From Caryophanales bacterium UBA6768 (GTDB lineage Bacteria; Bacillota; Bacilli; Bacillales_D; Amphibacillaceae), in NCBI GenBank assembly GCA_002453315.1, contig DKGO01000090.1, positions 1-57,100 of the forward strand: DNA of 57,100 bases. Reading direction: 5' to 3'. Shown in pieces: positions 5,369-42,127 of this stretch. Positions within the stretch are counted from its first letter, which is position 1, and the number at the start of each line of letters is the position of its first letter. Made by a program: the position numbers and the translations under genes. The notes beneath the pieces were generated by a model. It saw only the letters and a program-made list of their open reading frames with translations. It had not been told where the DNA came from and did no database searches.

Positions 5369-5635
5369 GTTTGGGAAAATCTGGGCTTATTCGGAAAAAT
5401 TAAAGCCTTAGAAAATTTGGAGTGATCTTTGTGGACGAATTTGCGGCGATAGTCGAGGGTGGTTTGATACAAATTTATCATTTGAGTGGAAATTACACGA
5501 TAGAAATCATTAAAATATTACAATTTTATAGGACTAAAGCATTATATTTTGGTGAAATATGTCGAAATTGTGGACATCTAGTCATATTTATGTGTATTGT
5601 TAGTATATAATACTGTATAATATTTGACAAGTGAA

Positions 5636-5722
5636 TCGATAAAGGCAAACCTATCGAAAGATAAGGACGCAAAACTACGAGCCTAAAGCAATATTGCTAT
5701 GGCAGTCGGGTTACCGAAGGAA
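5636..5722 (+). ncRNA. Cyclic di-GMP-I (GEMM-I) riboswitch
   Basis: The core features of the class are present in order: GGCAAACC, a GAAA tetraloop closing a short helix (5652-5661 region), GGACGCAAA, the GCCTAAA tetraloop-receptor segment, then ATGGCAGTCGGGTTACCGA. This RNA binds c-di-GMP and controls the downstream message. A hairpin with a T run follows at 5741-5768 as expression platform, so control is by transcription termination. Whether ligand turns the gene on or off cannot be read with certainty. The genes below it are an EAL phosphodiesterase and a PilZ protein, so the switch likely closes a c-di-GMP feedback loop. A -10-like TATAAT lies at 5616-5621. Confidence 0.93.
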
Positions 5723-5740
5723 ACTATTACGTTCTAAAAA

Positions 5741-5768
5741 GCGAACCATATTTTCTTTGGTTCGTTTT
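5741..5768 (+). terminator. Riboswitch expression-platform terminator
   Basis: GCGAACCA (5741-5748) pairs with TGGTTCGT (5757-5764, one G-U pair), flanked by A residues on the left and a T run on the right. It sits between the c-di-GMP aptamer and the EAL gene, so it is the likely switching element. Confidence 0.85.
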
Positions 5769-5820
5769 TTTGATGTGTTTCTTACTTGCAAGAAAACTAT
5801 TATAAGAAGGGAGGCTTACA

Positions 5821-6537
5821 ATGTCTTTCACCTGTTTTCTCAGGAAGGAAAAATTTCACCATTATTTTCAGCCGATTTACAATTTGCATACGTTTGAAAA
5901 GTTAGGTAAAGAGGCACTAATTAGATCCTCCAGTTATCCTAATCCGGAAATGATTTTTCAAAAGGCTAAAATAGAAGAGAGTCTTTATGAATTAGATTCA
6001 CGGTCAATAAATAAAGCTATTTCAACCTATCAATCAGCAACTCAATCGACGGACAATGAGTATCTTTTTTTAAATGTTTTACCATCTACTATTTTAAATC
6101 ACGATTTTCCGGCCTTTCTCGATCTCAAGATTCATGAGACGCAAATTAATAGTAAACAAATTGTCCTTGAGATTTCTGAATCTGAAACAATTGAAGATTT
6201 TGATACATTTAAAACATGTCTCTCTAAAATTAAAAGCTTAGGATTTTTAATTGCGATAGATGATGTTGGCGTTGGCTATACAAATGTTAAATCATTGATT
6301 GAACTAGAAGCGGATTATTTAAAGTTGGATGGCTACTTTTCGCAAAATTTAAATGTTTCAAGAAAAAAACAATCTTTTATTGCCTTTTATGTGAATTATT
6401 GTAAGCAATATAAAAGTAAGCTAATTATCGAGGGATTAGAAACAATAGAAGACTTAGCGATGGCAAAAAGGCTAGGAGTCGATATTGGTCAAGGATATCT
6501 TCTGGGCAAACCAGCTATGATAAAGAAATCGATTTAA
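5821..6537 (+). CDS. EAL-domain c-di-GMP phosphodiesterase
   Basis: Stand-alone EAL domain, 238 residues, which hydrolyses c-di-GMP to pGpG in the cytoplasm. The catalytic and metal residues of active EAL enzymes all appear: E31 of EAL, N85, E117, D147-D148, K168, E204 and Q224. There is no GGDEF, PAS or membrane part, so the domain is almost the whole protein. The ATG has GGGAGG 8 bases upstream. A c-di-GMP riboswitch with terminator stands before it and a PilZ receptor gene follows after 13 bases, so expression of this enzyme is tied to the level of its own substrate. Activity is inferred from the conserved residues. Confidence 0.92.
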   Translation: MSFTCFLRKEKFHHYFQPIYNLHTFEKLGKEALIRSSSYPNPEMIFQKAKIEESLYELDSRSINKAISTYQSATQSTDNEYLFLNVLPSTILNHDFPAFLDLKIHETQINSKQIVLEISESETIEDFDTFKTCLSKIKSLGFLIAIDDVGVGYTNVKSLIELEADYLKLDGYFSQNLNVSRKKQSFIAFYVNYCKQYKSKLIIEGLETIEDLAMAKRLGVDIGQGYLLGKPAMIKKSI

Positions 6538-6550
6538 GGGGGTGAACTCT

Positions 6551-7087
6551 ATGTTATTTATTGTGGTTTTGCAAACTGTATTAATCGTAATGTTAATAGG
6601 TTTGTTTTTTTATAAAACCTTTCTTGCCAAGGAAAAAAGTCAGAACTCAGCGGAGAAAGTAAATAGGGGGGGGGACGGGGTAACTACACGGAATTATATT
6701 GGTGCTAATTATAGAAGAACGTTTCGTGTAGGTGTAGATAAAAAAAATTGTTTAGTGAAGTTTGTGGAATTTGAAAATAATAAGTTCAATAAGTTGAAGG
6801 ACAGGGAATTTGAATGTTATATTGAAAACATTAGTATCGGTGGTTTGAAATTAGTTTGTCAATATGATATTCCAATTAAACAAAGCATTATCATTAAAAT
6901 AACTTTCAGTTTAAAGGAACAAGAGTTTTGCCTCACAGGAAAGATTGTAAGAAAGGAAAATTATCAGCATAACCAATTAGTATCTTACGGTGTTCAATTC
7001 CAGGAAATGTCCATGGATGAGGAGAGAAAGTTAACAAAAGTATTAAACCAAATTGTTGTGGAAACAAAGCAAAGACAAAGTGTGTAA
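6551..7087 (+). CDS. Membrane-anchored PilZ-domain c-di-GMP receptor
   Basis: About 178 residues: one N-terminal membrane helix (roughly residues 1-24), a short linker, and a PilZ domain. The PilZ ligand motifs are visible as RRTFR (about residues 55-59) and NISIGG further on, so binding of c-di-GMP is likely. Start ATG 6551 is preferred to the upstream GTG because AAGGGGGTG lies just before it. The gene shares a transcript with the EAL enzyme. The linker is encoded by a run of nine G at 6666-6674, in an otherwise AT-rich gene; slippage there would remove the PilZ domain. The output target is unknown. Confidence 0.88.
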   Translation: MLFIVVLQTVLIVMLIGLFFYKTFLAKEKSQNSAEKVNRGGDGVTTRNYIGANYRRTFRVGVDKKNCLVKFVEFENNKFNKLKDREFECYIENISIGGLKLVCQYDIPIKQSIIIKITFSLKEQEFCLTGKIVRKENYQHNQLVSYGVQFQEMSMDEERKLTKVLNQIVVETKQRQSV

Positions 7088-23770: not shown

Positions 23771-25658
23771 GTGCGCCCGGCATGGGTTATAACTTGGTGG
23801 TGAAAGTCCACTACAGACTTTGCAGTAGGAACTGTTAGCGAAAGGCAAGGGTGTCTTGGGTGACCAAGAATCTGAAGGAAGCCGGACGCAAAATCCCGAA
23901 CTGACGAACAGAAACTGTATATAAGGCTGACTTGGAATGGATGAGTTTGCGAAACAAAACAAAGTCCGATACTGCACGAGTTCCATCCAGTAAATACAGC
24001 AGTTACATGGGAGGAAGGTTATAGCTCTTACCCGGGGAGGTCTCATAAGGGTTATTTAATTAACAATCATGTTAGTGATAATATGATGAATTATGAGAAG
24101 TCAGCAGACGTCATAGTAATTCCCAAGGGAATGAAGGACAGAACAATCTTAAATCTTGGAAAACAAGGAGGTGCAGACATCGCCGCCTAAACACCGAAAA
24201 TCATCGTGGCATTTGCCGGAGAGATGACTACCTATGGAGAGATAAGCTGGAAGCGAAAGGGTAAATAGGAGAGTGTAGGGATGTCGCCTAGATATGAAAG
24301 AACAAGATGGTACCAACAATCTAATCAATCGTGTTATCACACGCGAAAATTTATGGGATGCATGTAAGAAAGTAAAGAAAAATAAGGGAGCACCGGGAGT
24401 AGATGGGATAACGGTATATGAACTGGAAGGCCATATGATGAAGTATTTTAATCCATTACAACGGAAATTAAAAGAAGGAACATATGAACCACAACCAGTA
24501 AAACGGGTACCTATTCCGAAACCAGATGGAACCAAGAGATACTTAGGTATTCCGTGTGTACTAGACAGGGTTGTCCAACAAGCAATCCTGCAAGTTATCA
24601 ACCCATTGATTGACCCACATTTTTCTGAAAATAGTTATGGATTCCGTAAAGGAAGAGATGCACATCAAGCAATAAAGCAAGCAAAGGTTTACTACAAAGA
24701 AGGTTATCGTATTGTGGTGGATTGTGACTTAAAAAGCTATTTTGACACCATCCATCATCATAGAATAAGGGACTACTTGGAATATTTCATCAAAGATAAA
24801 ATTGTATTAAAACTAATATGGAAATTCCTACGTTCAGGAATCCTAGACAAGGATATCTATATTGAAACGACAGAAGGCGCACCGCAAGGTGGTCCACTCT
24901 CGCCAATCTTAGCAAATATCTACCTAAACATGTTAGATATGGAACTAGAGAAAAGAGGACATCGTTTCATCAGATATGCGGATGATTTTGTAGTTTATGT
25001 TAGGAGTAAGCGTGCGGGGGAAAGGGTGATGGCAAGTATCACTGAATACCTTGAAAAAGATTTAGCACTTACAATTAACCGAAAGAAAAGCAAAGTATCC
25101 GCAATAACAAAATCAACATTTCTAGGATTCAACATACACAATTCTATGGGAAAGTCGGTAGCCGACCAAGTAAGTCGGCAAAACAACGATTTAAAGATAA
25201 TCTAAGAGCAAAAACAAGTAGGAAACAACGAGGTACATTTCATGATATTGTTGTCAAAATAAATCAAGTAACAAACGGATGGATTAACTACTATGGAATT
25301 ACATTTATGAAGAAATTCATGGAAGAAACCCAAGCATGGTTAAACCACCGTTTAAGACAATTAATATGGAAAAGATGGAAAGTGCCACGTACTAAATACC
25401 GAATGCTTCGTAAATATGGTATTGACCATGATGATGCAATGAAATTAGCTAATTCTCGTAAGGGGTATTGGCGTATTTCAAAAAGTGAGATAATACACAG
25501 AGCGTTAACAAAAGAGAAACTCATAAAATGGGGATTAAAAGATATGACCCTACTTTATGAGAAAAGGTACTTAAAAGGTTGAACCGCCGTATACGGATCC
25601 GTATGTACGGTGGTGTGAGAGGACGACTAGCCAATTAATGGATAGTCTCCTACTCGAT
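23771..25658 (+). mobile_element. Group IIC intron
   Basis: The 5' end GTGCGCCCGGCATGGG begins at 23771 and domain I sequences follow (GAAAGTCCACTACA, GTTAGCGAAAGGCAAGGG). Domains V and VI lie at about 25582-25658 (CCGCCGTATACGG, GGTGTGAGAGG), ending in TACTCGAT. The encoded reverse transcriptase is of the class C type and the intron sits right behind a terminator hairpin. The ribozyme looks whole, but the reverse transcriptase frame is broken, so the element could splice or move only with help in trans. The ends are placed by family pattern and may be off by a few bases. Confidence 0.85.
24294..25582 (+). pseudogene. Group II intron reverse transcriptase/maturase, frameshifted
   Basis: The first frame (24294-25205) has the reverse transcriptase motifs KNKGAPGVDGI, IPKPDGTKRYLGIP, YGFRKGR, APQGGPLSPILANI and the catalytic RYADDFV. 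After IHNSMGK, near 25151, one A is missing from an A run. The next frame continues with VGSRPSKSAKQRFKDNLRA, INQVTNGWINYYG and the thumb/domain X ending (LANSRKGYWRISKS) to 25582. One base would restore a protein of about 430 residues. As it stands the product ends at 25205 without the maturase domain. Confidence 0.88.
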
Positions 25659-27036: not shown

Positions 27037-27316
27037 AAACTCCCCTTGTTAAAAAGTAATATTATTAATTATAATATTATAAAATTGCTAATGGTTATGT
27101 TTAACAATATTCTCTAACCTTTTATATTTACACTATTATAAATCCCTCAAAAATGGCTACACTTATTTTAAAAATACAATCCGGATTTTTTCCTTTTAAA
27201 GGGGAATACCAATTCTTCCAAACCTGGAAGTGATGACATTACTATAAGTATAAGAGTAAACAAATAGATTTCATGATATATTATTATTATAACTACATTT
27301 AGGTGGGGTGATAGGA

Positions 27317-28936
27317 ATGAGTATATCCCTTAGAGAAGCAATGAAATTTGGTAAATTTAATGAGTGTAAAGTAGTTGCCGGTGAAGAAGGGATGGATAGA
27401 GTAATTGAAAACATCACAATAATGGAAGTCCCGGATATTGTTAAATGGCTAAAGGAAAAGGAATTAATCATAACGTCATTATTCGCGATTAAGGATGATA
27501 CTGATGCGCAAAATTTATTAATTCATCGATTATTTTATGCCGGGGCTACTGCATTAGCTGTTAAACCATTTGAAACATTGGAGGGGATTCCAAAAACAAT
27601 TATTGATAATGCTAATAAACTTGATTTCCCCGTTATTGAGGTCCCTAATCAAGTGAAATATTTAGATATATTGTCTCCAACTATGCATCAAATCTTTAAT
27701 AAAAAAGTTGTACTCCAGGAAGACCTAGAACGTGCCACAAACATTCTCCAGGAAATTGCATTAAATTCACATGGAATGGAAGCATTTGTTGAAAGTCTCC
27801 ATTCTATTACACAAAATATGGTGACAATTGAAAGTGAATGGCCTATTATAAAAACCCCTGAACCATCATACCCGATTATACCTTTAACAGATGAACAAAA
27901 GCATGAACTTTCTGTTTTAAAAAGACCTGTTCGTTATACAAGAATATATCAAAATGAGAATATTGATTGTATAGTTGCCCCTATAATTGTAGACCACCAA
28001 TATTATGGAAATATAACTAGTTGGGGGGTACACAGTAATCATATTTCTATGGATATCGCTGTTTTGGAACAGGCTTCTTTCTTTGTATCATTAGAGTTTT
28101 TGCGATTAAAGGTAAGACATGATACTGAGCAACAGTATAAAAGTGATTTTATGAGAGAATTACTTTTTAATAACAATATAACTAAAAACGACATGTTAGA
28201 GTGGGGTGGTAAATATTATATAACCGAACATATGAAATATACCTGTATACTAATACAGATAGAAAAAGAAAATGAATCACAATCTGATGTGATGAAATTA
28301 ATTAATGAAGTGTATTTAATATTACAAAACAAATATCATAATGTACTATTAGGAATTGTAAGAGGAAAAATTTGTATCATTCAACAAACAAAAAATTTGA
28401 GTCAATTAAAACAGGATCTTAGCATAATGAAATCTATTATTAATGAAAAAAGATCAATTTTTACTACAGTATGTATTGGTGTTGGGGATACACAATTGGG
28501 GATTAAGGGTATACGTAGTAGCTTTAATCAGGCAGAGCAGGCAGTTAAATTAGCATTAATCACTAAAGGGACTCAAAATATTGTTTTTTATAAGGAGTTA
28601 GGCATTTACTGTCTGTTAGAACCACTAAAAAGTACAGACCAGCTAATGGAGTTTTTTGAGAATACTCTAGGAAAATTAATAAAAGATAAGGGAAAGAAGG
28701 AACTTATCCATACATTACAAGAATATTTTAATGAAAATGAGGTATTAACAAAAACTGCTGATAAATTATTTATACATGTTAATACGCTTAAATACCGATT
28801 AAAACAAATTGAAAACATTACATCATTAAGTTTTAAAAGTTCAGAAGACAAATTTTCCATATTTTTGGGTTTGAAAATCTATAATTTAATAAAAGGCAAC
28901 AATTCTAATTTGTTAGATGTTTATGGTGATCGGTGA
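27317..28936 (+). CDS. PucR-family transcriptional regulator
   Basis: A 539-residue regulator with the PucR layout: N-terminal ligand domain (SLREAMKFGKFNECKVVAG, MEVPDIVKWLKEKELIITS), a central GGDEF-like region, and a C-terminal HTH_30 helix-turn-helix (TKTADKLFIHVNTLKYRLKQIENI). Relatives control purine or other nitrogen-source breakdown. ATG 27317 is chosen because AGGTGGGG lies before it; the GTG at 27308 is inside that site. It comes first in the island and faces the TRAP and pyrimidine-ring genes, which it probably controls. Confidence 0.88.
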   Translation: MSISLREAMKFGKFNECKVVAGEEGMDRVIENITIMEVPDIVKWLKEKELIITSLFAIKDDTDAQNLLIHRLFYAGATALAVKPFETLEGIPKTIIDNANKLDFPVIEVPNQVKYLDILSPTMHQIFNKKVVLQEDLERATNILQEIALNSHGMEAFVESLHSITQNMVTIESEWPIIKTPEPSYPIIPLTDEQKHELSVLKRPVRYTRIYQNENIDCIVAPIIVDHQYYGNITSWGVHSNHISMDIAVLEQASFFVSLEFLRLKVRHDTEQQYKSDFMRELLFNNNITKNDMLEWGGKYYITEHMKYTCILIQIEKENESQSDVMKLINEVYLILQNKYHNVLLGIVRGKICIIQQTKNLSQLKQDLSIMKSIINEKRSIFTTVCIGVGDTQLGIKGIRSSFNQAEQAVKLALITKGTQNIVFYKELGIYCLLEPLKSTDQLMEFFENTLGKLIKDKGKKELIHTLQEYFNENEVLTKTADKLFIHVNTLKYRLKQIENITSLSFKSSEDKFSIFLGLKIYNLIKGNNSNLLDVYGDR

Positions 28937-29247
28937 TTAGTCATGTTATGTGATAGGAGATATCCCAAAAATCTGCTTATTCTTCCGTGTTCGAATTATG
29001 GACATAAAAACAAGGAAGTAAGCGGGACGCATCTTAGGTTCTAAACTAATTACCACAAGAACTGAGAGGATAAAGTGACAAGTTTGTATATTATTCAAGG
29101 ACCAATATGTCTGAACAGACAATTTTAAATCTCCTTTTTGTCTTAATAGACTATTGAATTCCGGTAATATGTATCATATATTTGAATAAATGAATGCGTT
29201 TTCAATTTTAGGGGTTAGTTTCAGTTTATTATAAAAGGAGGGGCAAA
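28937..29247. other. Control region before the TRAP operon, with a hairpin
   Basis: No gene is seen. GCTTA...CTTCC (28975-28986) can pair with GGAAG TAAGC (29014-29023); there is no T tract, so this may be a regulator site or RNA stem rather than a terminator. Confidence 0.4.
29154..29182 (+). promoter_or_regulatory. Likely sigma-A promoter of the TRAP/orotate operon
   Basis: TTGAAT (29154-29159) and TATATT (29177-29182) are separated by 17 bases. They lie 66 bases before the binding-protein gene. Confidence 0.5.
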
Positions 29248-30360
29248 ATGAGAAGTTGGAAATTTTTTTTAGTCATAGGGTTAATGTTTTTGTTAGTTTT
29301 AGGTGCATGTGGCAATGCCAATAATGAAAGTGGAGGAGATTCCGAGAACGAGAATAATACGGGGGAAAATAACGCAGCAGTAGATAATGACAATGATGTA
29401 ACTGGGGACGATGATGCTGATTATGAGGAACTTACAATTACTTTTAGTCATAATCAACCAATTGATAGCCCAGAAGGTATAGGGGCAGCAAAATTCCAGG
29501 AAATTGTTGAAGAGAAATCTGGTGGAAAAATAAAAGTTGATATGTTCCCAGCTTCACAATTAGGAAGTCTTCGTGAACAAGTAGAAGGTACACAATTGGG
29601 CGATATAGATATTACAATGCAACCAAGTGCATATATCACACCTTTTGTAGATGATGTTAAGGTTCTTGATTTGCCATATCTGTGGCCAGCTGACTATGAA
29701 TTACTTTATGAGGTGTTAGACAGTGAAGCAGGTGAAGCGGTATTGGATGTCCTTGAACAAGGAGGATTTAAAGGGCTTGGTCATTGGCCTGGTGGATTTA
29801 AATTAATAACAACAAATAAACAGGAAATCCATGAGCCAGCAGATTTTAAGGGACTAGATATCAGAGTAATGACTTCACCTTTATTAGAAGGACAATACAA
29901 ACTGTGGGGGGCAAATCCAACAATTATTGAGTATGCAGAAGTTTATAATAGTTTGCAACAAGGGGTCGTAGATGGACAGGAAAATCCATTACAAACCATT
30001 TATTTAAACAATTATCATGAAGTACAAGATAATGTAATTGAAAGTTATCATGGAATCATGTCCTATATGTTAATTGCAAATAAATCTTGGTATGATGGAC
30101 TTCCTGATAATACAAAGGCATTAATTAAAGAGGCTGAAGAAGAGGGGAGAAAAGCCGGAAGGATCGCCTTAGAAGAAACTGAGGATAACTATCGTCAAGA
30201 TATTATTGATTCTGGCATAAATTACTATGAATTAACTGAAGAAGAAATTGGCAAGTTCAAAGAAATTTCAGAACCGTTCCATAAGGAAGTATATGGTGAA
30301 CCACATCAATTGGAAATTTTACAAAAAATTTATGATAAAATAGACGAAGTTTCTCAGTAA
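29248..30360 (+). CDS. TRAP transporter solute-binding lipoprotein (DctP type)
   Basis: A 370-residue DctP-family protein. Lipobox LVLGAC near residue 24, an acidic Asn-rich linker, then the binding domain starting ITFSHNQPIDSPEGIG. The segment FKGLDIRVMTSPLL carries the arginine that grips a carboxylate group in this family, and NSLQQGVVDGQENP is the second signature. The ligand should therefore be a carboxylic acid; from the neighbours I infer orotate. ATG with AAAGGAGGGG upstream. A terminator-like hairpin follows, so it is probably made in excess over the membrane subunits. Confidence 0.9.
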   Translation: MRSWKFFLVIGLMFLLVLGACGNANNESGGDSENENNTGENNAAVDNDNDVTGDDDADYEELTITFSHNQPIDSPEGIGAAKFQEIVEEKSGGKIKVDMFPASQLGSLREQVEGTQLGDIDITMQPSAYITPFVDDVKVLDLPYLWPADYELLYEVLDSEAGEAVLDVLEQGGFKGLGHWPGGFKLITTNKQEIHEPADFKGLDIRVMTSPLLEGQYKLWGANPTIIEYAEVYNSLQQGVVDGQENPLQTIYLNNYHEVQDNVIESYHGIMSYMLIANKSWYDGLPDNTKALIKEAEEEGRKAGRIALEETEDNYRQDIIDSGINYYELTEEEIGKFKEISEPFHKEVYGEPHQLEILQKIYDKIDEVSQ

Positions 30361-30384
30361 TAACCTCGAGAATATACTTTTGAC

Positions 30385-30425
30385 CAAGGGAGTAGTTTGT
30401 AATCTTTCGACTAGTCCCTTGTTTT
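30385..30425 (+). terminator. Hairpin between the TRAP binding protein and membrane genes
   Basis: CAAGGG (30385-30390) pairs with CCCTTG (30416-30421), extended by TAGT/ACTA inside, followed by TTTTA. It is probably leaky, letting some message reach the downstream genes. Confidence 0.6.
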
Positions 30426-30566
30426 ATTGCTTCTAAACGGAACTAGATGCAATACAGAGGCGTAATTAATTAGATTTTTAAAATGGTATAAATCCATAAT
30501 AAGAAAGCCCAAACGTTATTTGACATTTTATGATCAACAATTCAGTAAGGGAGAAAGGAGAAAGAC

Positions 30567-31055
30567 ATGAAAATATTTTACAAATTTGAGGAATTTATTA
30601 TTGGATTTTCAATGATTATGGTACTTTTTATATTATCTTTGAATATCATCTTGCGTTTTTTCTTTAGTTCTGGAATTACTTGGGCTGAGGAATTAATAAG
30701 ATATTCGATTATTTATATCACATTTATCGGTGGGGGAGTTTGTTTTCGGAAAGGAATACACGTTGGTGTAGACGTGCTTTTGGAATCCTTGAATAAGACC
30801 GGTAGAAAAACATTACAAATTATTATCCATTTGTTGGGGATTCTTTTCATGTTGTTTTTAATCAAATATGGGACAGATCTAGTTCTGTTTACTAAAGGTA
30901 CCGGACAATTAGCAGCAGCATTGCAAATTAAAATGTTTTGGGCTTATTTAGCGATTCCATTAGGGGCTTTCCTTTCACTAATTCACTTGATAATTCGAAC
31001 TGTAAAATTAGTTCGTGGTTATGAAGAGTTCGAACACCAAGGAGGGATTAGTTAG
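30567..31055 (+). CDS. TRAP transporter small membrane subunit (DctQ type)
   Basis: A 162-residue protein with four membrane helices and the family motif ITWAEELIRYSIIYITFIGGG. It pairs with the DctM subunit. ATG with GAAAGGAG upstream. The gene ends two bases before the DctM start. Confidence 0.88.
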   Translation: MKIFYKFEEFIIGFSMIMVLFILSLNIILRFFFSSGITWAEELIRYSIIYITFIGGGVCFRKGIHVGVDVLLESLNKTGRKTLQIIIHLLGILFMLFLIKYGTDLVLFTKGTGQLAAALQIKMFWAYLAIPLGAFLSLIHLIIRTVKLVRGYEEFEHQGGIS

Positions 31056-31056
31056 G

Positions 31057-32331
31057 ATGATTGCAATATTACTTGGCTTTATCATCATTTTACTACTAGG
31101 GAGTGTACCAATATATGTCTCGCTAGGAATAGCTACATTTGTGGTGACAATTTTTCTAACAGATATCCAGCCCATGTTATTAGTTCAAAGGTTATTTGCG
31201 GGTCTAGATCAGTTTGCATTAATGGCGTTGCCATTGTTTATACTGGCAGCCAATATCATGGATGGAGGGGGACTGTCTGAAAGAATTCTAAAATTTGCCC
31301 GGGCGCTCGTTGGTCATCTAGCTGGTGGTGTAGCAATGACTACTCAGGTAGCAAGTATGTTTTTTGGAGCACTTTCAGGTTCAGGGCCAGCTACTGTTAT
31401 TGCGATTGGTAAAATTATGACTCCTGAATTATCCCGTGGGGGTTATAGTAAATCATTTTCATCTGGGCTGTTAGCATCAGCAGGGGCAGTCTCATTAATT
31501 ATCCCCCCAAGTATTACATTGATAATTTATGGATCGGTTACCGGTGTTTCAGTGGGAAGTTTATTTATCGCTGGAATTGGAGCGGGTATTGTATTCGGCC
31601 TTTCTTCCATTTTATACATCATTTATTACGCCCGAAAATATAATATTCCACGTGATAAAAAGGCGACTAAAAGAGAATTATGGAATTCGACAAAAAGAGC
31701 TGGTTGGGCTTTAATGATTCCAGTAATTATTTTAGGTGGAATTTACTCGGGAGTATTTACCCCAACAGAGGCGGCTGGGGTATCTGCTGTTTATGCATTA
31801 TTGATTAGCTTTTTTGTATATAGGGAAATGAATTTAAAAAAGTTTTACAAAATATGTGTCGATTCCTCAATAACAACCGCCCAAGTATTAGTATTAGTTG
31901 CAGCAGCACAGGTATTAGGTTGGCTATTAACAAAAGGTCAAGTACCTCAATTGATTGCAACATTCATTGCTGAAAATATCTCCGTACCATTTTTGTTTCT
32001 ATTACTATTTAATATACTTTTACTTGTGTTAGGAATGTTCATTGAAGGTGTTGCAGCCATAATTATTGTCGCACCATTAGTGTTTTCGGCTGCGATTTCA
32101 CTTGGGATTGACCCAGTGCATCTGGGAATAATCATGATTGCTAATTTAGCTATTGGTATGTATACTCCTCCATTCGGTCTAAATATATTTGTGACACAAA
32201 CAATTACTAAAATTAATATGAAAGAGATGTTACCAGGACTTATGGCTTTTTTGTTATTTAACCTTTTTGGGCTAATTATCATAACTTATGTTCCAGATGT
32301 GTCATTGTTTTTATTGAAAATTTTAAAATAA
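31057..32331 (+). CDS. TRAP transporter large membrane subunit (DctM type)
   Basis: The sodium-coupled transport subunit, about 424 residues with some twelve helices. Family motifs are visible: MALPLFILAANIM, SGSGPATVIAIG, ASAGAVSLIIPPSI and the repeat-2 equivalent IANLAIGMYTPPFGLNIFV. Start ATG 31057 is chosen because AAGGAGGG (31039-31046) precedes it and the DctQ stop lies one base before. Together with DctP and DctQ it forms a complete secondary importer for a carboxylate. Confidence 0.9.
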   Translation: MIAILLGFIIILLLGSVPIYVSLGIATFVVTIFLTDIQPMLLVQRLFAGLDQFALMALPLFILAANIMDGGGLSERILKFARALVGHLAGGVAMTTQVASMFFGALSGSGPATVIAIGKIMTPELSRGGYSKSFSSGLLASAGAVSLIIPPSITLIIYGSVTGVSVGSLFIAGIGAGIVFGLSSILYIIYYARKYNIPRDKKATKRELWNSTKRAGWALMIPVIILGGIYSGVFTPTEAAGVSAVYALLISFFVYREMNLKKFYKICVDSSITTAQVLVLVAAAQVLGWLLTKGQVPQLIATFIAENISVPFLFLLLFNILLLVLGMFIEGVAAIIIVAPLVFSAAISLGIDPVHLGIIMIANLAIGMYTPPFGLNIFVTQTITKINMKEMLPGLMAFLLFNLFGLIIITYVPDVSLFLLKILK

Positions 32332-32382
32332 GTATAATACAAAAGTGTAATTCAGCTCATCATTTATATGGAGGGAATAAAA

Positions 32383-33609
32383 ATGAGCCTTCATCGAATA
32401 GAAAATATATTGAATATGTTAAATGCGATTGGATATACCTGTAAAGGTATGAATAGGTTAGCCTATTCTGAGAATGAATTAAATGTTAAAGAAAATTTCT
32501 CGAAAATTTGTGAAGGAATGGGGTTGGTGGTCCGGGTAGATGAAGGTGGAAATTATATTGCCCGGAGGAAAGGCATATTAGATGAATCTCCTCCAGTTTT
32601 AGTCGGATCCCATTTGGATACAGTGATTAATGGAGGTAAATATGACGGAACAGTTGGGATAGTTGCTGGATTAGAGTTGATAAGTCGGCTCAACGAAAAA
32701 AAGGTTAAGACTCTAAATCCGATAGAAATAATTTGTTTTGCTGGTGAGGAATCTTCAAGATTTGGAATTTCAACGATAGGTAGCCAGTTAATGGCGGGGA
32801 AATTAAATAAACAAGAGATTAGTAATATTGTAGATAAAAACAATATTACTTTAAGAGAATCCTTTAAAAATGTAGGTCTGGATATTGAATTAATAGAAAT
32901 GGCTTCCAGAAAAGAGGAGCAATTAAAGGCATTTTTTGAAGTTCATATTGAACAAGGACCAGTATTGGAAGGGGAAAATATTTCAATAGGGATTGTAACT
33001 GGTATTGCGGCTCCTACTAGATTAATTTTGACCGTAAAAGGGAAATCTGGTCATTCGGGGTCTACACCAATGAACTTAAGAAAGGATGCATTTTTAGCGG
33101 CATCTGAATTGGCATTATTTTTAGAAGAAATGGCAAACTTGGAGTCTGACAAGGGAACTGTGGCTACAGTTGGTGATTGTGTTGTTGCCCCAGGTGCAAT
33201 GAATGTCATACCGGGAAAAACGGAAATGAAAATTGATATAAGAAGTCCCGATATGAATTCGAAAAATTTTATATTAAAACAGATAAAAGAAAAAATAATA
33301 GATGTTGAAAAGAAAAGAGGCTTATCAATTAATTGTGAAATTTTGACACATGAGGACCCTGTCGTGTTAGGCAAAGACATGATAAAATCTCTTATTCAAT
33401 CATGTGAAAAATTAAATATTTCATATAAAAAAATGCCTAGCGGTGCAGGACATGATGCCATGAATATGGCAGGGATATGTCCGACGGGATTGATATTTAT
33501 TCCATGTAGGGATGGTTTAAGCCACCATAAGGATGAATATACATCGATAGAAAATATAAAAATTGGCTGTGATATTTTAGAAGAGGAAATATTAAAGTGG
33601 GCAACATGA
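32383..33609 (+). CDS. M20 carbamoyl-amino-acid amidohydrolase (ureidosuccinase-like)
   Basis: A 408-residue hydrolase of the M20 AllC/HyuC/beta-ureidopropionase family, which removes the carbamoyl group as CO2 and ammonia. The metal ligands are in place: H in GSHLDTV, D in YDGTVG, the EE of AGEESSRFG, H in FEVHIEQG and H in LSHHKDEYT. ATG 32383 has TGGAGGGA just before it, so the ATG at 32368 is too early. With a dihydroorotase-type gene downstream, the likely substrate is N-carbamoyl-L-aspartate, giving aspartate. Other ureido acids (allantoate, ureidopropionate) remain possible. Confidence 0.85.
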   Translation: MSLHRIENILNMLNAIGYTCKGMNRLAYSENELNVKENFSKICEGMGLVVRVDEGGNYIARRKGILDESPPVLVGSHLDTVINGGKYDGTVGIVAGLELISRLNEKKVKTLNPIEIICFAGEESSRFGISTIGSQLMAGKLNKQEISNIVDKNNITLRESFKNVGLDIELIEMASRKEEQLKAFFEVHIEQGPVLEGENISIGIVTGIAAPTRLILTVKGKSGHSGSTPMNLRKDAFLAASELALFLEEMANLESDKGTVATVGDCVVAPGAMNVIPGKTEMKIDIRSPDMNSKNFILKQIKEKIIDVEKKRGLSINCEILTHEDPVVLGKDMIKSLIQSCEKLNISYKKMPSGAGHDAMNMAGICPTGLIFIPCRDGLSHHKDEYTSIENIKIGCDILEEEILKWAT

Positions 33610-33706
33610 ATTTAAGGGAGTAAATCATTCGTTTTTTCCGAAGAGTAACAAAATGAATGTTTTAGTGGCTACAATATATCCCTGAACTGTTAAAGGAGGA
33701 ATACTT

Positions 33707-34492
33707 TTGAAGGATTATAATTTACCGATACTTTCTAACGATAAAGTGAGTAATCGTTATTGGCACATGGTATTAGATGCTACAAAAATTAAAGAAACAA
33801 TCGATCCCGGACAATTTTTTAATATTCAAACAACAGAATATGGGAGCTATTTTCCTCTGTTAAGAAGGCCATTTAGTATTTTTCGTATCTTTCATGATAC
33901 TTTGGAATTTCTGTATAAAGTTGATGGAGCAGGTACACAAAGTTTAAAAGAATATCGGCCAAATGACACGATTAATATACTAGGACCAGCTGGGTTTCCT
34001 TTTACAATAAGGGATAATAGTCAAAATATTTTATTATTAGCGAGAGGGGTAGGTATAGCCACTTTAGCGGCTCTTGCCCAAAGGGCCGCCCAGGAGAAAA
34101 GGAATATTTATGCAATTTTAAGTGCAAGAACAAAAAATGATTTATTAGCGGTAAAAGAATTAGAAAATTATTGTACAAAAATATACGCTGTAACAGAAGA
34201 AGAACAAACGAGCGATGTGAATAATGTAAGACAGATTGTAAATAAATTAATTTTTGAAAATAATATTGATGCAGCATATACATGTGGTTCAAGGAGACTT
34301 TCAATTTTGTTACAAGAAATTACGAATGAACAGAAAATCTTCAGTCAAGTGGCACTAGAAGAATACATGGCGTGTGGGATTGGTGTTTGTTATTCGTGTG
34401 TATGTAAAGTGAAAAAAGATGATGGAATTCATATTGTAAAATCTTGTGAGGAAGGGCCAGTATTTTCCTTAAAGGAGGTTATTTTTGAATGA
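33707..34492 (+). CDS. Dihydroorotate dehydrogenase electron-transfer subunit-like (PyrK type)
   Basis: A 261-residue flavoprotein with the ferredoxin-reductase fold. RRPFSIF binds FAD, LLARGVGIATLAAL is the NAD-side glycine loop, and ACGIGVCYSCVCKV with a later SCEEGPVF supplies the four cysteines of a [2Fe-2S] cluster, exactly the PyrK pattern. It passes electrons between NAD(H) and the PyrD-type partner, whose gene overlaps it by 4 bases. TTG start behind GGAGGA. Here it most likely drives orotate reduction with NADH rather than pyrimidine synthesis. Confidence 0.88.
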   Translation: MKDYNLPILSNDKVSNRYWHMVLDATKIKETIDPGQFFNIQTTEYGSYFPLLRRPFSIFRIFHDTLEFLYKVDGAGTQSLKEYRPNDTINILGPAGFPFTIRDNSQNILLLARGVGIATLAALAQRAAQEKRNIYAILSARTKNDLLAVKELENYCTKIYAVTEEEQTSDVNNVRQIVNKLIFENNIDAAYTCGSRRLSILLQEITNEQKIFSQVALEEYMACGIGVCYSCVCKVKKDDGIHIVKSCEEGPVFSLKEVIFE

Positions 34493-35433
34493 AAGTACTA
34501 AAGAATAAATTAGAGGTGGATATTGGAAGGCTGAAAATACAAAATCCTGTAATGCCTGCTTCAGGGGCCTTTGGAGAGGGGATGGATAAAGTATTAGATT
34601 TTAATCTGTTGGGTGCATTAATTCCTAAAAGTATCACTAAAAAACCCCAACCAGGAAATAAAAACCCAAGAGCCTGTGAAACAAAAGGGGGAATGATCAA
34701 CTCTATAGGGATTCAAAGTAAGGGTTTAGAATATTATTTAAATACAATGATACCATATTATAGTCAATACGATGTCCCGCTAATTTCTAGTATATCAGCC
34801 GAATCTATTGAAGAATTTGTAGAAATGTCAAAGGTAATTTCTTCGTCAGAAAATGTAGCAGCTATTGAACTAAATATTTCATGTCCTAACCTAAAGAACA
34901 ATGGTCAAGCATTTGGAATGAGTGAAGAAATCACTTATGATTTAACATCCCAAGTTAGAAATGCTGTAGAAAAACCGATTTTAGTTAAGTTAACACCTAA
35001 TGTGACAAATATCCAGTCCATTGCCCTAGCAGCAGAGAAAGCAGGTGCGGATTCTTTAGTAGTTGCCAACACTCCACTTGCAATGGCGATAGATATCCAA
35101 TCACGTAAACCTAAAATTGCTAATATAATGGGGGGGCTTTCTGGCCCAGCAATTAAGCCAATTATTGTAAGGCAAATATTTCAGGTAAATGAAGTCTGTT
35201 CCATTCCAATTATAGGTTGTGGTGGAATAATGGATGCTGCTGATGCTATTGAATTGATACTTGCGGGGGCAACAGCAGTACAAGTAGGAACAGCAAGCTT
35301 TGTTAATCCTACAGCAATGATTGATATTATTCATGGTATTGAATCGTATTTAGATGAACATCAATTTAAAAGTGTTAATGAAATTATCGGGAATATCATT
35401 ATCGAAAATAAACCCAAAGATGATTATAGTTAA
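34489..35433 (+). CDS. Dihydroorotate dehydrogenase 1B-like (PyrD type)
   Basis: A 314-residue FMN barrel enzyme of the class 1B family. The motif ELNISCPNLK contains the active-site cysteine (C132); NPVMPASGAFG, KPILVKLTPN, ADSLVVANT and the phosphate-binding IPIIGCGGI are present. It acts as a heterotetramer with the PyrK-type protein, whose gene overlaps its ATG. In a biosynthetic operon it would oxidise dihydroorotate. Next to a TRAP importer and a carbamoyl hydrolase it is more likely to run in the reducing direction, orotate to dihydroorotate. A dihydropyrimidine dehydrogenase role is the alternative. Confidence 0.88.
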   Translation: MKVLKNKLEVDIGRLKIQNPVMPASGAFGEGMDKVLDFNLLGALIPKSITKKPQPGNKNPRACETKGGMINSIGIQSKGLEYYLNTMIPYYSQYDVPLISSISAESIEEFVEMSKVISSSENVAAIELNISCPNLKNNGQAFGMSEEITYDLTSQVRNAVEKPILVKLTPNVTNIQSIALAAEKAGADSLVVANTPLAMAIDIQSRKPKIANIMGGLSGPAIKPIIVRQIFQVNEVCSIPIIGCGGIMDAADAIELILAGATAVQVGTASFVNPTAMIDIIHGIESYLDEHQFKSVNEIIGNIIIENKPKDDYS

Positions 35434-35463
35434 ATTAAGTGTTGGAAGGGGTGTGCTTTAAAA

Positions 35464-36858
35464 ATGAAGTGGGATCATGTGATAAAAAATGGTATCGTTA
35501 CTTCAACAGAACATTGTTTTAAAGGTAATTTATATATTAAAGATGGTAAAATTGCTGCAATTACAACGAAGGATGTTATTGAAGATGCTCGTGAAATAAC
35601 CGATGCTTCAGGATGTCATGTATTACCCGGTTTAATGGATATTCATATTCATTCTAGGGACCCTAGTTCAACCTACAAAGAGGATTTTTATCACTCAACT
35701 CTGGCTGCAGCTGCGGGGGGTGTGACACTTGTATTTGAAATGCCAAATACGAATCCACCAATTAATAATGTTGAGAATTTTCAAAAACAAGTAAGTAATT
35801 TTTCTAGTAAAGCCAACGTAGATTTTGCTATTTGGGGAATTTGTTTAGGAGACCTTAATTTGGAAAGTATCAAATTACTTTCCGAGGTCGGAGTCATTGG
35901 ATTTAAATTCTTTTGGGGATATGCAATAAATAAAGATACTTATGAATTGGTTTATAATTACGATGCTGAAATGGAAAATATTATACCTCCTCTAAGTGAT
36001 GGAGAAGTTTATAAAATTTTTAAAGAGGTTGCAAAAACAGGAAAAGTTTTATCCATCCATGCAGAAAATAATGAACTAATTGAGATTTTAACGAATGAAA
36101 TAAAGAAATCAGGTAGAACAGATTATGACGCATTCATTGAGGCTAGACCAGATTTAGCTGAATTAACAACGATTCAAACAGGTATTTCATTTGCAGAGAA
36201 GGCGGGGACTAAATTACACATTCTTCATGTTACTTCAGCAAAGGGAGTTAATGCAATAAGTGAGGCGCAAAAAAGAACAAATCAAATTACAGCTGAGACT
36301 TGTCCCCAATTTTTGTTTTTAAATGCTGATGATTATGATGATGTAGGCCCAATGATGAAGGTTTATCCACCAACAAAATATAAAGGAGACCAAGACAGAC
36401 TTTGGGAAGGTATAGATGATGGAACAATTTCAATTGTTTGTTCTGATCATGCACCACATACCGAGGAAGAGAAAACGGGTGATCTTTGGTCCATACCGGC
36501 AGGAATGTGTGGAGTTGAAACTTTAGTTCCACTGATGTTAAATGCAGTAAATGAAAATAAAATAACGATACAACAATTAGTTTCTCTTTTGTCATCAAAT
36601 CCTGCAAAGCAATTTGGTTTATATCCAAGAAAAGGGTCACTACAAGTTGGTACTGATGCCGATATTACTATTGTAGATTTGAACCAACCATTTAAAATTA
36701 AAAGGGAAAATTTGCATAGTAAAAGCAAAGTAACAGCCTTTGATGGATTTACTGGAAAAGGAAACCCTGTAGCAACCATTGTTAGGGGTAAGACTGTAAT
36801 GAAGGATGGGAAGATAATTGTAGAAAATCATGGGAAATTAGTTAGACCAATATCGTAA
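35464..36858 (+). CDS. Dihydroorotase/allantoinase-family cyclic amidohydrolase
   Basis: A 464-residue metal-dependent ring-opening enzyme. Metal ligands: H61 and H63 of HIHSR, K148 of GFKFF (the carbamylated lysine), H199, H255 and D328 in CSDHAPHTEEEK. Two details favour a dihydroorotase: HxHxR, whose arginine (R65) holds the substrate carboxylate, and MPNTNPP (93-99); dihydropyrimidinases and allantoinases differ at both places. It would open dihydroorotate to N-carbamoylaspartate, the substrate of the M20 hydrolase upstream. Start ATG 35464 behind GGAAGGGG. Its overall length and N-terminal part are closer to allantoinase, so the assignment is likely, not proven. Confidence 0.82.
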   Translation: MKWDHVIKNGIVTSTEHCFKGNLYIKDGKIAAITTKDVIEDAREITDASGCHVLPGLMDIHIHSRDPSSTYKEDFYHSTLAAAAGGVTLVFEMPNTNPPINNVENFQKQVSNFSSKANVDFAIWGICLGDLNLESIKLLSEVGVIGFKFFWGYAINKDTYELVYNYDAEMENIIPPLSDGEVYKIFKEVAKTGKVLSIHAENNELIEILTNEIKKSGRTDYDAFIEARPDLAELTTIQTGISFAEKAGTKLHILHVTSAKGVNAISEAQKRTNQITAETCPQFLFLNADDYDDVGPMMKVYPPTKYKGDQDRLWEGIDDGTISIVCSDHAPHTEEEKTGDLWSIPAGMCGVETLVPLMLNAVNENKITIQQLVSLLSSNPAKQFGLYPRKGSLQVGTDADITIVDLNQPFKIKRENLHSKSKVTAFDGFTGKGNPVATIVRGKTVMKDGKIIVENHGKLVRPIS

Positions 36859-37373: not shown

Positions 37374-37446
37374 TGGAGCATACCGGGCTTGAACCGGTGA
37401 CCTCTTGTCTGCCAGACAAGCACTCTCCCAACTGAGCTAATGCCCC
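37374..37446 (-). tRNA. tRNA-Ala (anticodon GGC)
   Basis: 73 bases without an encoded CCA. The acceptor arm pairs in full with the alanine identity pair G3-U70 and discriminator A. The D arm contains AGCTCAGTTGGGAGAG, the anticodon stem CTTGT/ACAAG encloses the loop CTGGCAG (anticodon GGC), and the T arm reads CCGGTTCAAGCCCGG. It is transcribed leftward. A promoter is seen on the minus strand: TTGCTA (37505-37510), 16 bases, TATAAT (37483-37488). A decayed 3' half copy lies at 26857. Confidence 0.97.
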
Positions 37447-40970: not shown

Positions 40971-41012
40971 CGAACAAATGTTTGATATAATTAACCTACA
41001 AACAAATGTTCC
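40971..41012 (+). promoter_or_regulatory. Two LexA-like boxes around a -10 box, before tnpB
   Basis: CGAACAAATGTTTG (40971-40984) fits the Bacillus LexA/DinR consensus CGAACRNRYGTTYG at every position. TATAAT follows at 40986-40991. CAAACAAATGTTCC (40999-41012) is a second near match. The layout would let LexA block transcription of tnpB until DNA damage. The -35 region (TTCCCA near 40963) is weak. Confidence 0.55.
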
Positions 41013-41035
41013 CTAAGGAGGTGTTCTGTGAAAAT

Positions 41036-42127
41036 ATGGCCATTATTTCGCTGAAATTGGAGTTGTTGAACCCAACGAAATCAAAACAAGGAATGTATGA
41101 AAAAATGACTGAAATAAATACGGGGTTTTCCAATTGGTTGTTGGGTTTAACTAGTTTATCAAAAATAACTTCTAAGATTTTTAAAGATTTTTCTGATGAA
41201 AGGTTTCCTTCTGCTATTGTGAACCAAACCATTCGTGAAGTAAACTCTAAAAAGAAACATCAAAAGGCAACATTATTCAAAAAATTTTGGTGTGGTTTTA
41301 ATAACCAAAATTGCAAAATTGAACTAGAAAATAACTTATATAAATTTTCCTTTCCAACATTGAAAAAAAGAATTGCTGTACCTGTTGTTGCTAAAGACTA
41401 CCAACAATACTGGTTAGACAAGCTGCTTAGTGGGAAAGCAAAACAAGGTAAAACGGAATTATATAAAAAGCGTGGGCGTTGGTTTGTTGCTGTAGCTATT
41501 AGTTTTGAAACAGAAAAGCTTAAAATTGTATCCCTTCACCCTAAAATAATGGGAATTGATGTGGGCCTTAGAAACATTGCCACATGCAGTTTGGGAACGA
41601 AAAACTTAATCTTTAAAGGTAACGGTGTTTCCTTTAAAAGAAGAAAGTTCGCTTCCAAAAGAAAAAAACTCGGCCAACTTAAAAAGTTATCAGCCATTAA
41701 AAGATCCAAAAATAAAGAATCCCGATGGATGAAAGATGTCAATCACAAAATCAGTCGTCAAATCATTCATTTTGCTATTTCCAACGGTGTTGGAGTCATC
41801 AGAATGGAAGATTTAACAGGTATTCGTATGGCAAAGTCTAAAAAAGAGGCAGGAAGAAATCTTCATCACTGGAGTTTCTATCAACTTCAAAAATTTATCG
41901 AATACAAAGCAGATATGAAAGGGATAAAAGTTGACTATGTAAAACCTGCCTATACTTCACAAACATGTAAATGTGGCCATTGCCATAAAGATAATCGTCA
42001 TTATTTAAATTTTAAATGTAAAAAATGTGGTTATAAAAATCATGCTGATGTTAATGCAAGTATCAATATTGCCAAAGCAATTTCCGGTTTTTCAGAAACA
42101 AAAAATAAAACGAAAACATCGGCTTGA
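41036..42127 (+). CDS. tnpB: TnpB RNA-guided nuclease of an IS200/IS605-type element
   Basis: About 363 residues. The RuvC-like catalytic triad is present: D175 in IMGIDVGLRN, E258 in IRMEDLTGI and D338 in NHADVNASINIA. The zinc finger CKCGHC ... CKKCG lies between the last two. TnpB cuts DNA guided by the omega RNA made from the element's right end. Start ATG 41036 is chosen, with AAGGAGGTG at 41015-41023; the ATG at 41006 lies inside a LexA-like box. There is no tnpA partner, so the element needs a transposase in trans. The frame is whole and likely active. Confidence 0.92.
   Translation: MAIISLKLELLNPTKSKQGMYEKMTEINTGFSNWLLGLTSLSKITSKIFKDFSDERFPSAIVNQTIREVNSKKKHQKATLFKKFWCGFNNQNCKIELENNLYKFSFPTLKKRIAVPVVAKDYQQYWLDKLLSGKAKQGKTELYKKRGRWFVAVAISFETEKLKIVSLHPKIMGIDVGLRNIATCSLGTKNLIFKGNGVSFKRRKFASKRKKLGQLKKLSAIKRSKNKESRWMKDVNHKISRQIIHFAISNGVGVIRMEDLTGIRMAKSKKEAGRNLHHWSFYQLQKFIEYKADMKGIKVDYVKPAYTSQTCKCGHCHKDNRHYLNFKCKKCGYKNHADVNASINIAKAISGFSETKNKTKTSA

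Follow-up and report, generated by a model that had tools for sequence, protein, structure and literature searches.

A candidate orotate-degradation gene cluster in a Bacillus relative and a probable dihydroorotase lineage carrying the name allantoinase

Why would a relative of Bacillus keep a dihydroorotate dehydrogenase pair next to two amidohydrolases, an importer and a regulator? The question is raised by eight open reading frames (ORFs), all on the plus strand at 27308-36858 of a 57,100-nucleotide stretch of Caryophanales bacterium UBA6768 (contig DKGO01000090.1, positions 1 to 57,100; hereafter the window). Judged from their sequences, these genes very probably form a catabolic operon for orotate, a compound from which the units of RNA and DNA are made and which would be taken up and degraded to aspartate. 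ORFs were called in the window and assigned to families by Pfam and NCBIfam (TIGR/PRK) models with their curated cut-offs. The cluster opens with a PucR-family regulator (27308, GTG start, or 27317, ATG start, to 28936; PF07905 at 104.6 bits, with PF07905 and PF13556 both above cut-off), followed by the three parts of a tripartite ATP-independent periplasmic (TRAP) transporter: the solute-binding lipoprotein DctP, the proposed orotate binder (29248-30360; above its domain cut-off, with R206, Y229 and N246 invariant), the small permease DctQ (30567-31055; PF04290, 115.2 against a cut-off of 28.3) and the large permease DctM (31015-32331; TIGR00786, 428.4 against 268.45). Assignment to the TRAP family rests on all three domains scoring above cut-off in adjacent ORFs of one strand. 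Next come an M20 amidohydrolase, proposed to be an N-carbamoyl-L-aspartate hydrolase or ureidosuccinase (32368-33609; TIGR01879 hydantoinase/carbamoylase, 423.4 against 204), a PyrK-like FAD/2Fe-2S electron-transfer subunit with a TTG start (33707-34492; PF10418, 58.6 against 23.9) and an altered nucleotide-binding motif, ARGVGIAT, the class 1B dihydroorotate dehydrogenase catalytic subunit PyrD (34489-35433; PRK07259, 371.5 against 269), and a 464-residue cyclic amidohydrolase, AHD (35464-36858), whose database name is allantoinase AllB and which scores above the cut-offs of both the AllB and the pyrC_multi models. The ORFs of DctQ/DctM and of PyrK/PyrD overlap in an operon-like manner. An earlier note on this DNA, made from the letters alone, had grouped the same genes and had them facing one way, and this layout is borne out for all eight ORFs.

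The best supported step of the proposed pathway is that of the dihydroorotase. According to PMC12809426, Arg60, Asn89 and His306 of the Methanocaldococcus jannaschii enzyme hold the alpha-carboxylate of the substrate, Asp302 contacts its carbamoyl group, and these four residues are described as invariant among dihydroorotases. Their counterparts in AHD, R65, N95, H332 and D328, together with K148, are found in 38/38 sequences (the window and the 37 loci of relatives introduced below). Alignment with the dihydroorotase 4yiw places the same residues in register (HVHLREP, MPNT, DHAPHT), and the motifs HIHSR (from residue 61), MPNT (93) and SDHAPHT (327), which the earlier note had picked out in the amidohydrolase, are all present. 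The Arg and the Asn are missing in the aligned allantoinases 3hm7, 3e74 and 8hfd and in the L-hydantoinase 1gkr; with HxHSR, MPNT and SDHAPHT, AHD departs from the site pattern of solved allantoinases (no Arg in HxHx(N/S), MPL for MPN, SDHSP). The pyrC_multi model TIGR00857 gives 342.8 against a cut-off of 279.05, and AHD is not orthologous to standard PyrC, the best PRK09357 equivalog model reaching 276.0 of the 575 needed. AHD shares the HxHxR, MPNT and DHAPH substrate and metal residues with class I (4yiw) and class II PyrC, but at about 460 residues it is overall nearer to hydantoinases and allantoinases, and it resembles the carboxylated-Lys types in having their Lys position, where bacterial type I dihydroorotase, in the account of PMC12809426, uses Asp. 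AHD is almost certainly a dihydroorotase, its proposed opening of dihydroorotate to N-carbamoyl-L-aspartate being strongly supported, and we argue that this lineage should be labelled dihydroorotase in place of the common database name allantoinase AllB.

Other genomes share the arrangement, with protein identities of 36-75%, which takes it beyond chance. Orthologues of AHD (E <= 1e-130) were sought in two sets, the 193 genomes taken as the family of Bacillus sp. MRMR6 (G001, which contains locus L001) and 397 genomes from its order; they occur in 10 of the former and 25 of the latter (28 matches), giving 34 genomes and 37 loci when G001 is counted once. All 37 loci were mapped, gene order being read by simple ORF calling and BLAST rather than from curated annotation. 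The full eight-gene set is present in 13 of them (L001, L026, L031, L059, L064, L070, L072-L075 and L078-L080), while nine (L024, L025, L027-L030, L060, L069 and L071) combine M20, PyrK, PyrD and AHD with a major facilitator superfamily (MFS) carrier and an IclR regulator, with no close TRAP or PucR gene. The set of PyrKD, M20 and AHD is thereby found at 22/37 AHD loci. A single-protein scan of genome contigs had returned six loci: L001, which has the cluster, and L002-L006, which are weak matches (28-34%).

Two further gene families, neither of which has a match in the window, were recorded beside the clusters of relatives. The PGA_cap (CapA-like) family (e.g. L001:11401-12696) occurs in 15/37 loci, that is 11/13 TRAP clusters, 3/9 MFS clusters and L062; the best NCBIfam match of the L001 member, below cut-off, is a lasso-peptide epimerase, and a racemase role for the protein would be a guess. 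A family of NfsA-type NADPH nitroreductases (L070:14590-15348 and 13 other ORFs), named from one scanned member, lies directly 3' of AHD in 9/13 TRAP clusters.

PyrD and PyrK of the cluster are an extra and divergent pair. Each of the 22 genomes with cluster PyrKD encodes exactly one further strong class 1 PyrD (PF01180, 309-358 bits, against 246-268 for the cluster copies), and eight of them additionally have a PreA-like protein (PF01180, 120-135 bits); among the AHD genomes without cluster PyrKD, a single class 1 PyrD was found in 10/10 searched (of 12). In the relatives, the cluster pair is distinct from the biosynthetic one and additional to it. Mean PyrD identity is 64% among cluster copies (window plus 22) and 67% among the 22 biosynthetic ones, against 43% between the two groups (maximum 47%), and 16 near-fixed positions, some of them in the orotate loop, distinguish the groups. 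The orotate-site motifs NISCPN and MINSIGIQ are retained in 23/23 cluster PyrDs. The window PyrD is assigned to class 1B by its PRK07259 score, its NISCPN motif and its PyrK-like partner with a 2Fe-2S domain, and it reaches 140.9 of the 335 set for PreA (PRK08318). Both window proteins resemble the solved class 1B enzyme (1ep1/1ep2/1ep3), PyrD with an E-value of 9.2e-74 to 1ep1 and PyrK with 3.9e-27, but the cluster pair forms a separate paralogue lineage with its own PyrK motif. The term "PyrK-like" of the earlier note is apt, the best PyrK equivalog score (PRK00054) being 156.9 of the 314 needed. Cluster PyrKs carry (A/G)RGVG(I/V)AT in 23/23 cases, whereas the biosynthetic ones carry GGG(I/V)G(V/I)PP in the 17 rows inspected of 22; in the variants inspected, ARGVG(I/V)AT thus faces GGGxGxPP, a SARxxxDLL-type motif faces an LGF-type one, and CGSxRL faces CGPxxM. 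In these alignments the nucleotide-binding region is altered in the cluster copies, whose coenzyme may differ from that of biosynthetic PyrK.

The metal and catalytic motifs of the M20 enzyme recur in the commonest variants of 29 aligned M20s, and its score with the AllC equivalog TIGR03176 is 281.1 of 597.75. Its substrate, N-carbamoyl-L-aspartate, is inferred from its neighbours; such a ureidosuccinase would be EC 3.5.1.7. Genes fitting the proposed substrate or product adjoin the set in a few relatives: the full cluster of L031 has an orotidine-phosphate-decarboxylase homologue between PucR and M20 (219.0 against a cut-off of 208), the cluster of L060 directly adjoins a de novo pyr operon that encodes a further PyrK and PyrD, an aspartase adjoins AHD in L023 and L062 (737.4 and 761.0 against 681.2), and L062 also has an aspartate-dehydrogenase-family gene. 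These neighbours illustrate rather than count, since they concern 4/37 loci only.

As for the importer, the carboxylate-binding arginine that the earlier note had seen in the TRAP protein corresponds to R206, which is invariant across 99 aligned DctP sequences, the window included. The structure of DctP was taken from the model built on this 99-row alignment, and a single-sequence model (pLDDT 36.6) was discarded. The same note knew of no well-characterised TRAP system for orotate, a statement that has to be amended, as the TRAP binding protein Desal_2161 (4NN3) is reported to have been crystallised with orotic acid bound (PMC11668362; review PMC5812351). Orotate is not unheard of as a TRAP ligand because of this report; Desal_2161 is homologous to the window DctP, yet it is one of several equally close TRAP proteins. 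K185, shared with 4NN3, was considered as a mark of orotate binding and dropped, since the closest TRAP proteins, C4-dicarboxylate binders included, also have Lys there. PucR proteins of the 13 full clusters are 36-42% identical, and PucR is probably a substrate-responsive activator of the cluster. In the MFS version, the carrier of L024, the only one scanned, has as best model an aromatic acid/H+ symporter, below cut-off (320.9 of 418.55).

Taken in order, the TRAP transporter would import orotate, and PyrKD, of a class given by its sequence, would, in the presumed direction, reduce it with NAD(P)H to L-dihydroorotate. AHD would open the ring to N-carbamoyl-L-aspartate, which the M20 enzyme, a member of its family by sequence and matched to this substrate by context, would hydrolyse to L-aspartate, CO2 and NH3. 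PucR would probably activate the operon in the presence of the substrate, and the aspartate would feed nitrogen and carbon metabolism. This chain from orotate through dihydroorotate and N-carbamoylaspartate to aspartate was already proposed in the earlier note with a fitting gene for each step; it stands, AHD having the residues of a dihydroorotase and PyrKD being a second copy.

We then looked at AHD from the side of pyrimidine synthesis. Of the 22 genomes with cluster PyrKD, 14 have canonical PyrC (462-517 bits) and 8 do not; among the other 12 AHD genomes the figures are 2 and 10. In all 18 AHD genomes (of 34) without canonical PyrC, the pyr operon passes from pyrB directly to the car genes, the next gene being carA except in L120, where it is carB. 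Seventeen of these 18 operons retain pyrB, carA, carB, pyrK, pyrD, pyrF and pyrE, the exception being L120 (G522), where no carA was called; several of the operons are without pyrP. In G001 and G418, pyrC lies between pyrB and carA. In the reference L123, the names of the pyr genes were assigned from their order, their size and their opening residues; PyrC and PyrD of L123 were confirmed separately, and the types of CarB, PyrF and PyrE were confirmed by Pfam in L060 only. No class II dihydroorotase above cut-off was found in 20 genomes, all 18 pyrC-less ones included, nine of the 20 giving weak matches below it. As a control, canonical PyrC was found in 374/397 genomes of the order (taken, by number and handles, to be the same 397 as in the AHD search), and 18 of the 23 without it have AHD; 20 of these 23 were named and the remaining three deduced to be G534, G538 and G571, whose best scores are below threshold. 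Thus pyrC is absent in 18/25 genomes with AHD against 5/372 without (Fisher p 2e-21, relatedness ignored). The five PyrC-less genomes G296, G318, G344, G393 and G429 have no AHD at E 1e-30.

In the AHD tree, which is a gene tree and not a species tree and in which the window row was placed without a pyrC label, the presence of pyrC needs five changes, four of them forced by well-supported branches. One clade (L061, L063, L065-L069 and L071, with L060 as sister) has a flagellar-rod gene cluster beside AHD in 7/8 loci, six of which also share mreB- and fabZ-type genes, the gene families having been read in L066 only. Because these neighbours are shared, the AHD loci of the clade probably occupy one chromosomal site. 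Within the clade, L069 and L071 keep the MFS version, L065 is without PyrKD, and L061, L063, L066 and L068 have AHD without PyrKD or a close M20 (L067, on a 5.3 kb contig, is too short for its gene content to be judged); this pattern is as expected if the catabolic set had decayed and the sole dihydroorotase of the cell been kept. AHD seems to have replaced the normal dihydroorotase in many relatives, and in those that are pyrC-less it probably also serves biosynthesis, making dihydroorotate for uridine monophosphate (UMP). The view of the earlier note that a biosynthetic role is unlikely has to be amended accordingly for AHD in these relatives. We lean, by a small degree, towards a broader proposal in which Bacillus-type bacteria have in AHD a second and independent lineage of dihydroorotases, to which the name allantoinase is systematically misapplied and which is used in an orotate operon and has several times been made the sole dihydroorotase after loss of pyrC; in pyrC-less hosts with the full operon the one enzyme would act in UMP synthesis as well as in orotate breakdown, with the direction of flow set by the regulator and by the carbamoylaspartate hydrolase.

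Related gene sets are carried on plasmids. A tblastn search of plasmids with the window PyrD led to Klebsiella records, and among the plasmid hits of PyrK and PyrD seven regions were opened, two of Klebsiella and five of Alphaproteobacteria; the window DNA itself has no close match among plasmids except for two short dctM pieces. The Klebsiella plasmids CP120874.1 (L135:6533-13363) and NZ_CP056151.1 (L136) encode an MFS carrier, PyrK, PyrD and M20 together with a PyrC of dihydroorotase class II, a helix-turn-helix regulator and a weakly porin-like protein. Their PyrC scores 411.3 against a cut-off of 292.95 for the class II equivalog TIGR00856 and 33.5 with the class I model, so that, going by these profiles, a dihydroorotase of an accepted family occupies the role of AHD. 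For the MFS, the three best matches among the mapped loci show 46-48% identity; PyrK, with the ARGVG motif, shares 39-40% of residues with the cluster PyrKs that match it best and 30.6% with the top-scoring biosynthetic PyrK; PyrD is 51-55% identical to cluster copies against 42% to biosynthetic ones and has 12/16 cluster-type residues, one biosynthetic-type and three of neither type; the M20 enzymes are 28-32% identical. At least 80% of the stretch from MFS to regulator is covered at 99% identity or more by 53/72,556 plasmid records, all of them from Klebsiella, and no copy of the set turned up in the E. coli genome collection. Orotate utilisation is the probable function of this set, as far as its sequences tell. 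By record annotation, a Nitratireductor plasmid (L137) carries TRAP, PyrK, PyrD, M20 and PyrE, an Agrobacterium plasmid (L138) has PyrF beside PyrK, PyrD and M20, and a Roseomonas plasmid (L139) carries MFS, PyrK, PyrD, M20 and PyrE. On Roseovarius and Paroceanicella plasmids (L140 and L141), related PyrKD pairs stand beside xanthine-dehydrogenase-type genes and the orotate-loop Asn of PyrD is changed; these pairs probably act on another substrate.

Several observations weigh against orotate catabolism and have to be set beside the explanations that they would favour. No dihydroorotase gene was found in the opened stretches of the Nitratireductor, Agrobacterium and Roseomonas sets, and a PyrKD pair alone is no proof of orotate, because related pairs adjoin xanthine-dehydrogenase-type genes. 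The best sequence matches of DctP are other TRAP proteins, C4-dicarboxylate binders among them, and in comparison of the modelled structure 4NN3 ties with ectoine and other binders in closeness, so that importer specificity is the least supported part of the orotate reading. Furthermore, 15/37 AHD loci are without PyrKD: nine have AHD alone among the compared genes, five have M20 (L023, L065, L076 and L077 within about 1 kb of AHD, L062 at about 5 kb), and L061 has a more distant M20 relative (32%) about 3 kb away. The loci that pair M20 with AHD without PyrKD would suit the uptake of dihydroorotate, ureidosuccinate or a similar acid, with PyrKD, where present, working oxidatively and delivering orotate for pyrimidine salvage, a direction that dihydroorotase and class 1B enzymes allow in principle and with which PyrE in two Alphaproteobacterial sets agrees. 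We consider this unlikely, since the salvage intermediate would be lost to an N-carbamoyl hydrolase, a biosynthetic PyrD is already at hand in 22/22 hosts with cluster PyrKD, and aspartate-consuming genes adjoin AHD in two loci. A little less likely still is a close analogue of orotate as the true substrate, be it an orotate bearing a substituent or a different cyclic ureide acid, with orotate itself incidental. The sixteen near-fixed PyrD differences, some within the orotate loop, would fit such a substrate, as would the nitroreductase and CapA-like genes that accompany many clusters; against it stand the orotate-site motifs kept in PyrD, the tie between AHD and PyrC loss, and the PyrE or PyrF genes that travel with related sets.

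The names in the databases point elsewhere, to breakdown of allantoin or hydantoin with AHD as allantoinase or hydantoinase and M20 as allantoate amidohydrolase. The overall similarity of AHD is highest to the L-hydantoinase 1gkr and to allantoinases (3hm7), ahead of dihydroorotases, the AllB model TIGR03178 gives 358.2 against a cut-off of 357.85, the M20 enzyme clears the allantoate amidohydrolase-named subfamily (PRK09290.1-5) with 461.0 against 399, this being a subfamily name and not a tested substrate, and PucR is named for purine catabolism. The allantoinase name of AHD therefore rests on 0.35 bits. Three allantoinase chains and an L-hydantoinase lack its Arg and Asn, such routes need no PyrKD, and neither the link to pyrC loss nor the class II dihydroorotase of Klebsiella has a place in them, which makes this explanation very improbable. 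Reductive breakdown of uracil or thymine by dihydropyrimidine dehydrogenase, dihydropyrimidinase and beta-ureidopropionase follows the same reaction logic with homologous enzyme families (PMC4016543). We hold it to be the least probable of all, given that PyrD falls far below the PreA cut-off while clearing that of class 1B, that 8/22 hosts have a separate PreA-like gene, and that AHD retains carboxylate-binding residues which dihydrouracil would not need.

How does the proposed orotate operon compare with known systems? Clostridium (Zymobacterium) oroticum ferments orotate via dihydroorotate and N-carbamoylaspartate to aspartate, CO2 and NH3, the same steps as those proposed here, but the pathway is known as biochemistry and is not known to have been linked to genes, whereas the window and the relatives of Bacillus offer a set of genes that includes an importer and a regulator. 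In ergothioneine utilisation, ErtD and ErtE likewise pair a cyclic amidohydrolase with an M20 enzyme, their substrate being a cyclic ureide that bears a carboxylate side chain; that pathway is not known to include PyrKD. Ergothioneine breakdown was rejected for the window, AHD and M20 scoring 325.9 of the 650 needed for ErtD and 380.6 of the 520 needed for ErtE. Dehydrogenase X1 of Barba et al. (2013; PMC4016543) branches near PreA/PydA and accompanies homologues of ygeW, xdh and carbamate kinase; its clusters resemble ours in joining a PyrD-homologous dehydrogenase to cyclic amidohydrolase and M20 neighbours, but the window PyrD is of class 1B with a PyrK partner.

Elsewhere in the window, a c-di-GMP-I riboswitch (85.0 against a cut-off of 35) lies in the region 5634-7087, immediately ahead of genes for an EAL-domain protein and a PilZ protein. 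Pieces of a group II intron RNA (23854-25658) upstream of the cluster surround a 303-residue ORF (24294-25205) that looks by eye like a reverse transcriptase and seems short. Downstream, a tRNA-Ala (GGC) gene on the minus strand (37374-37446) follows AHD at 0.5 kb, and the translation of an ORF at 41006-42127, judged by eye, suggests an IS605-type TnpB protein. In a scan for promoters and terminators, sites were no commoner than in shuffled sequence (58 against 57.1, and 7 against 5.9, respectively), and no regulatory site is claimed because of this.

A search of the open-access literature returned no paper describing such a cluster, which is weak evidence of absence as most subscription papers lie outside that search. 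The breakdown of orotate was described long ago and its genes were not found in the literature searched, so that the cluster would be a new gene-level version of a known pathway, more surprising in its misnamed dihydroorotase linked to PyrC loss. It provides a complete and testable gene set, importer included, and predicts a gene for ureidosuccinase. The Klebsiella and Alphaproteobacterial sets suggest that orotate is valuable enough as a nutrient for its use to be plasmid-borne. Finally, AHD as a dihydroorotase would explain how 18 of the sampled genomes make pyrimidines without pyrC.

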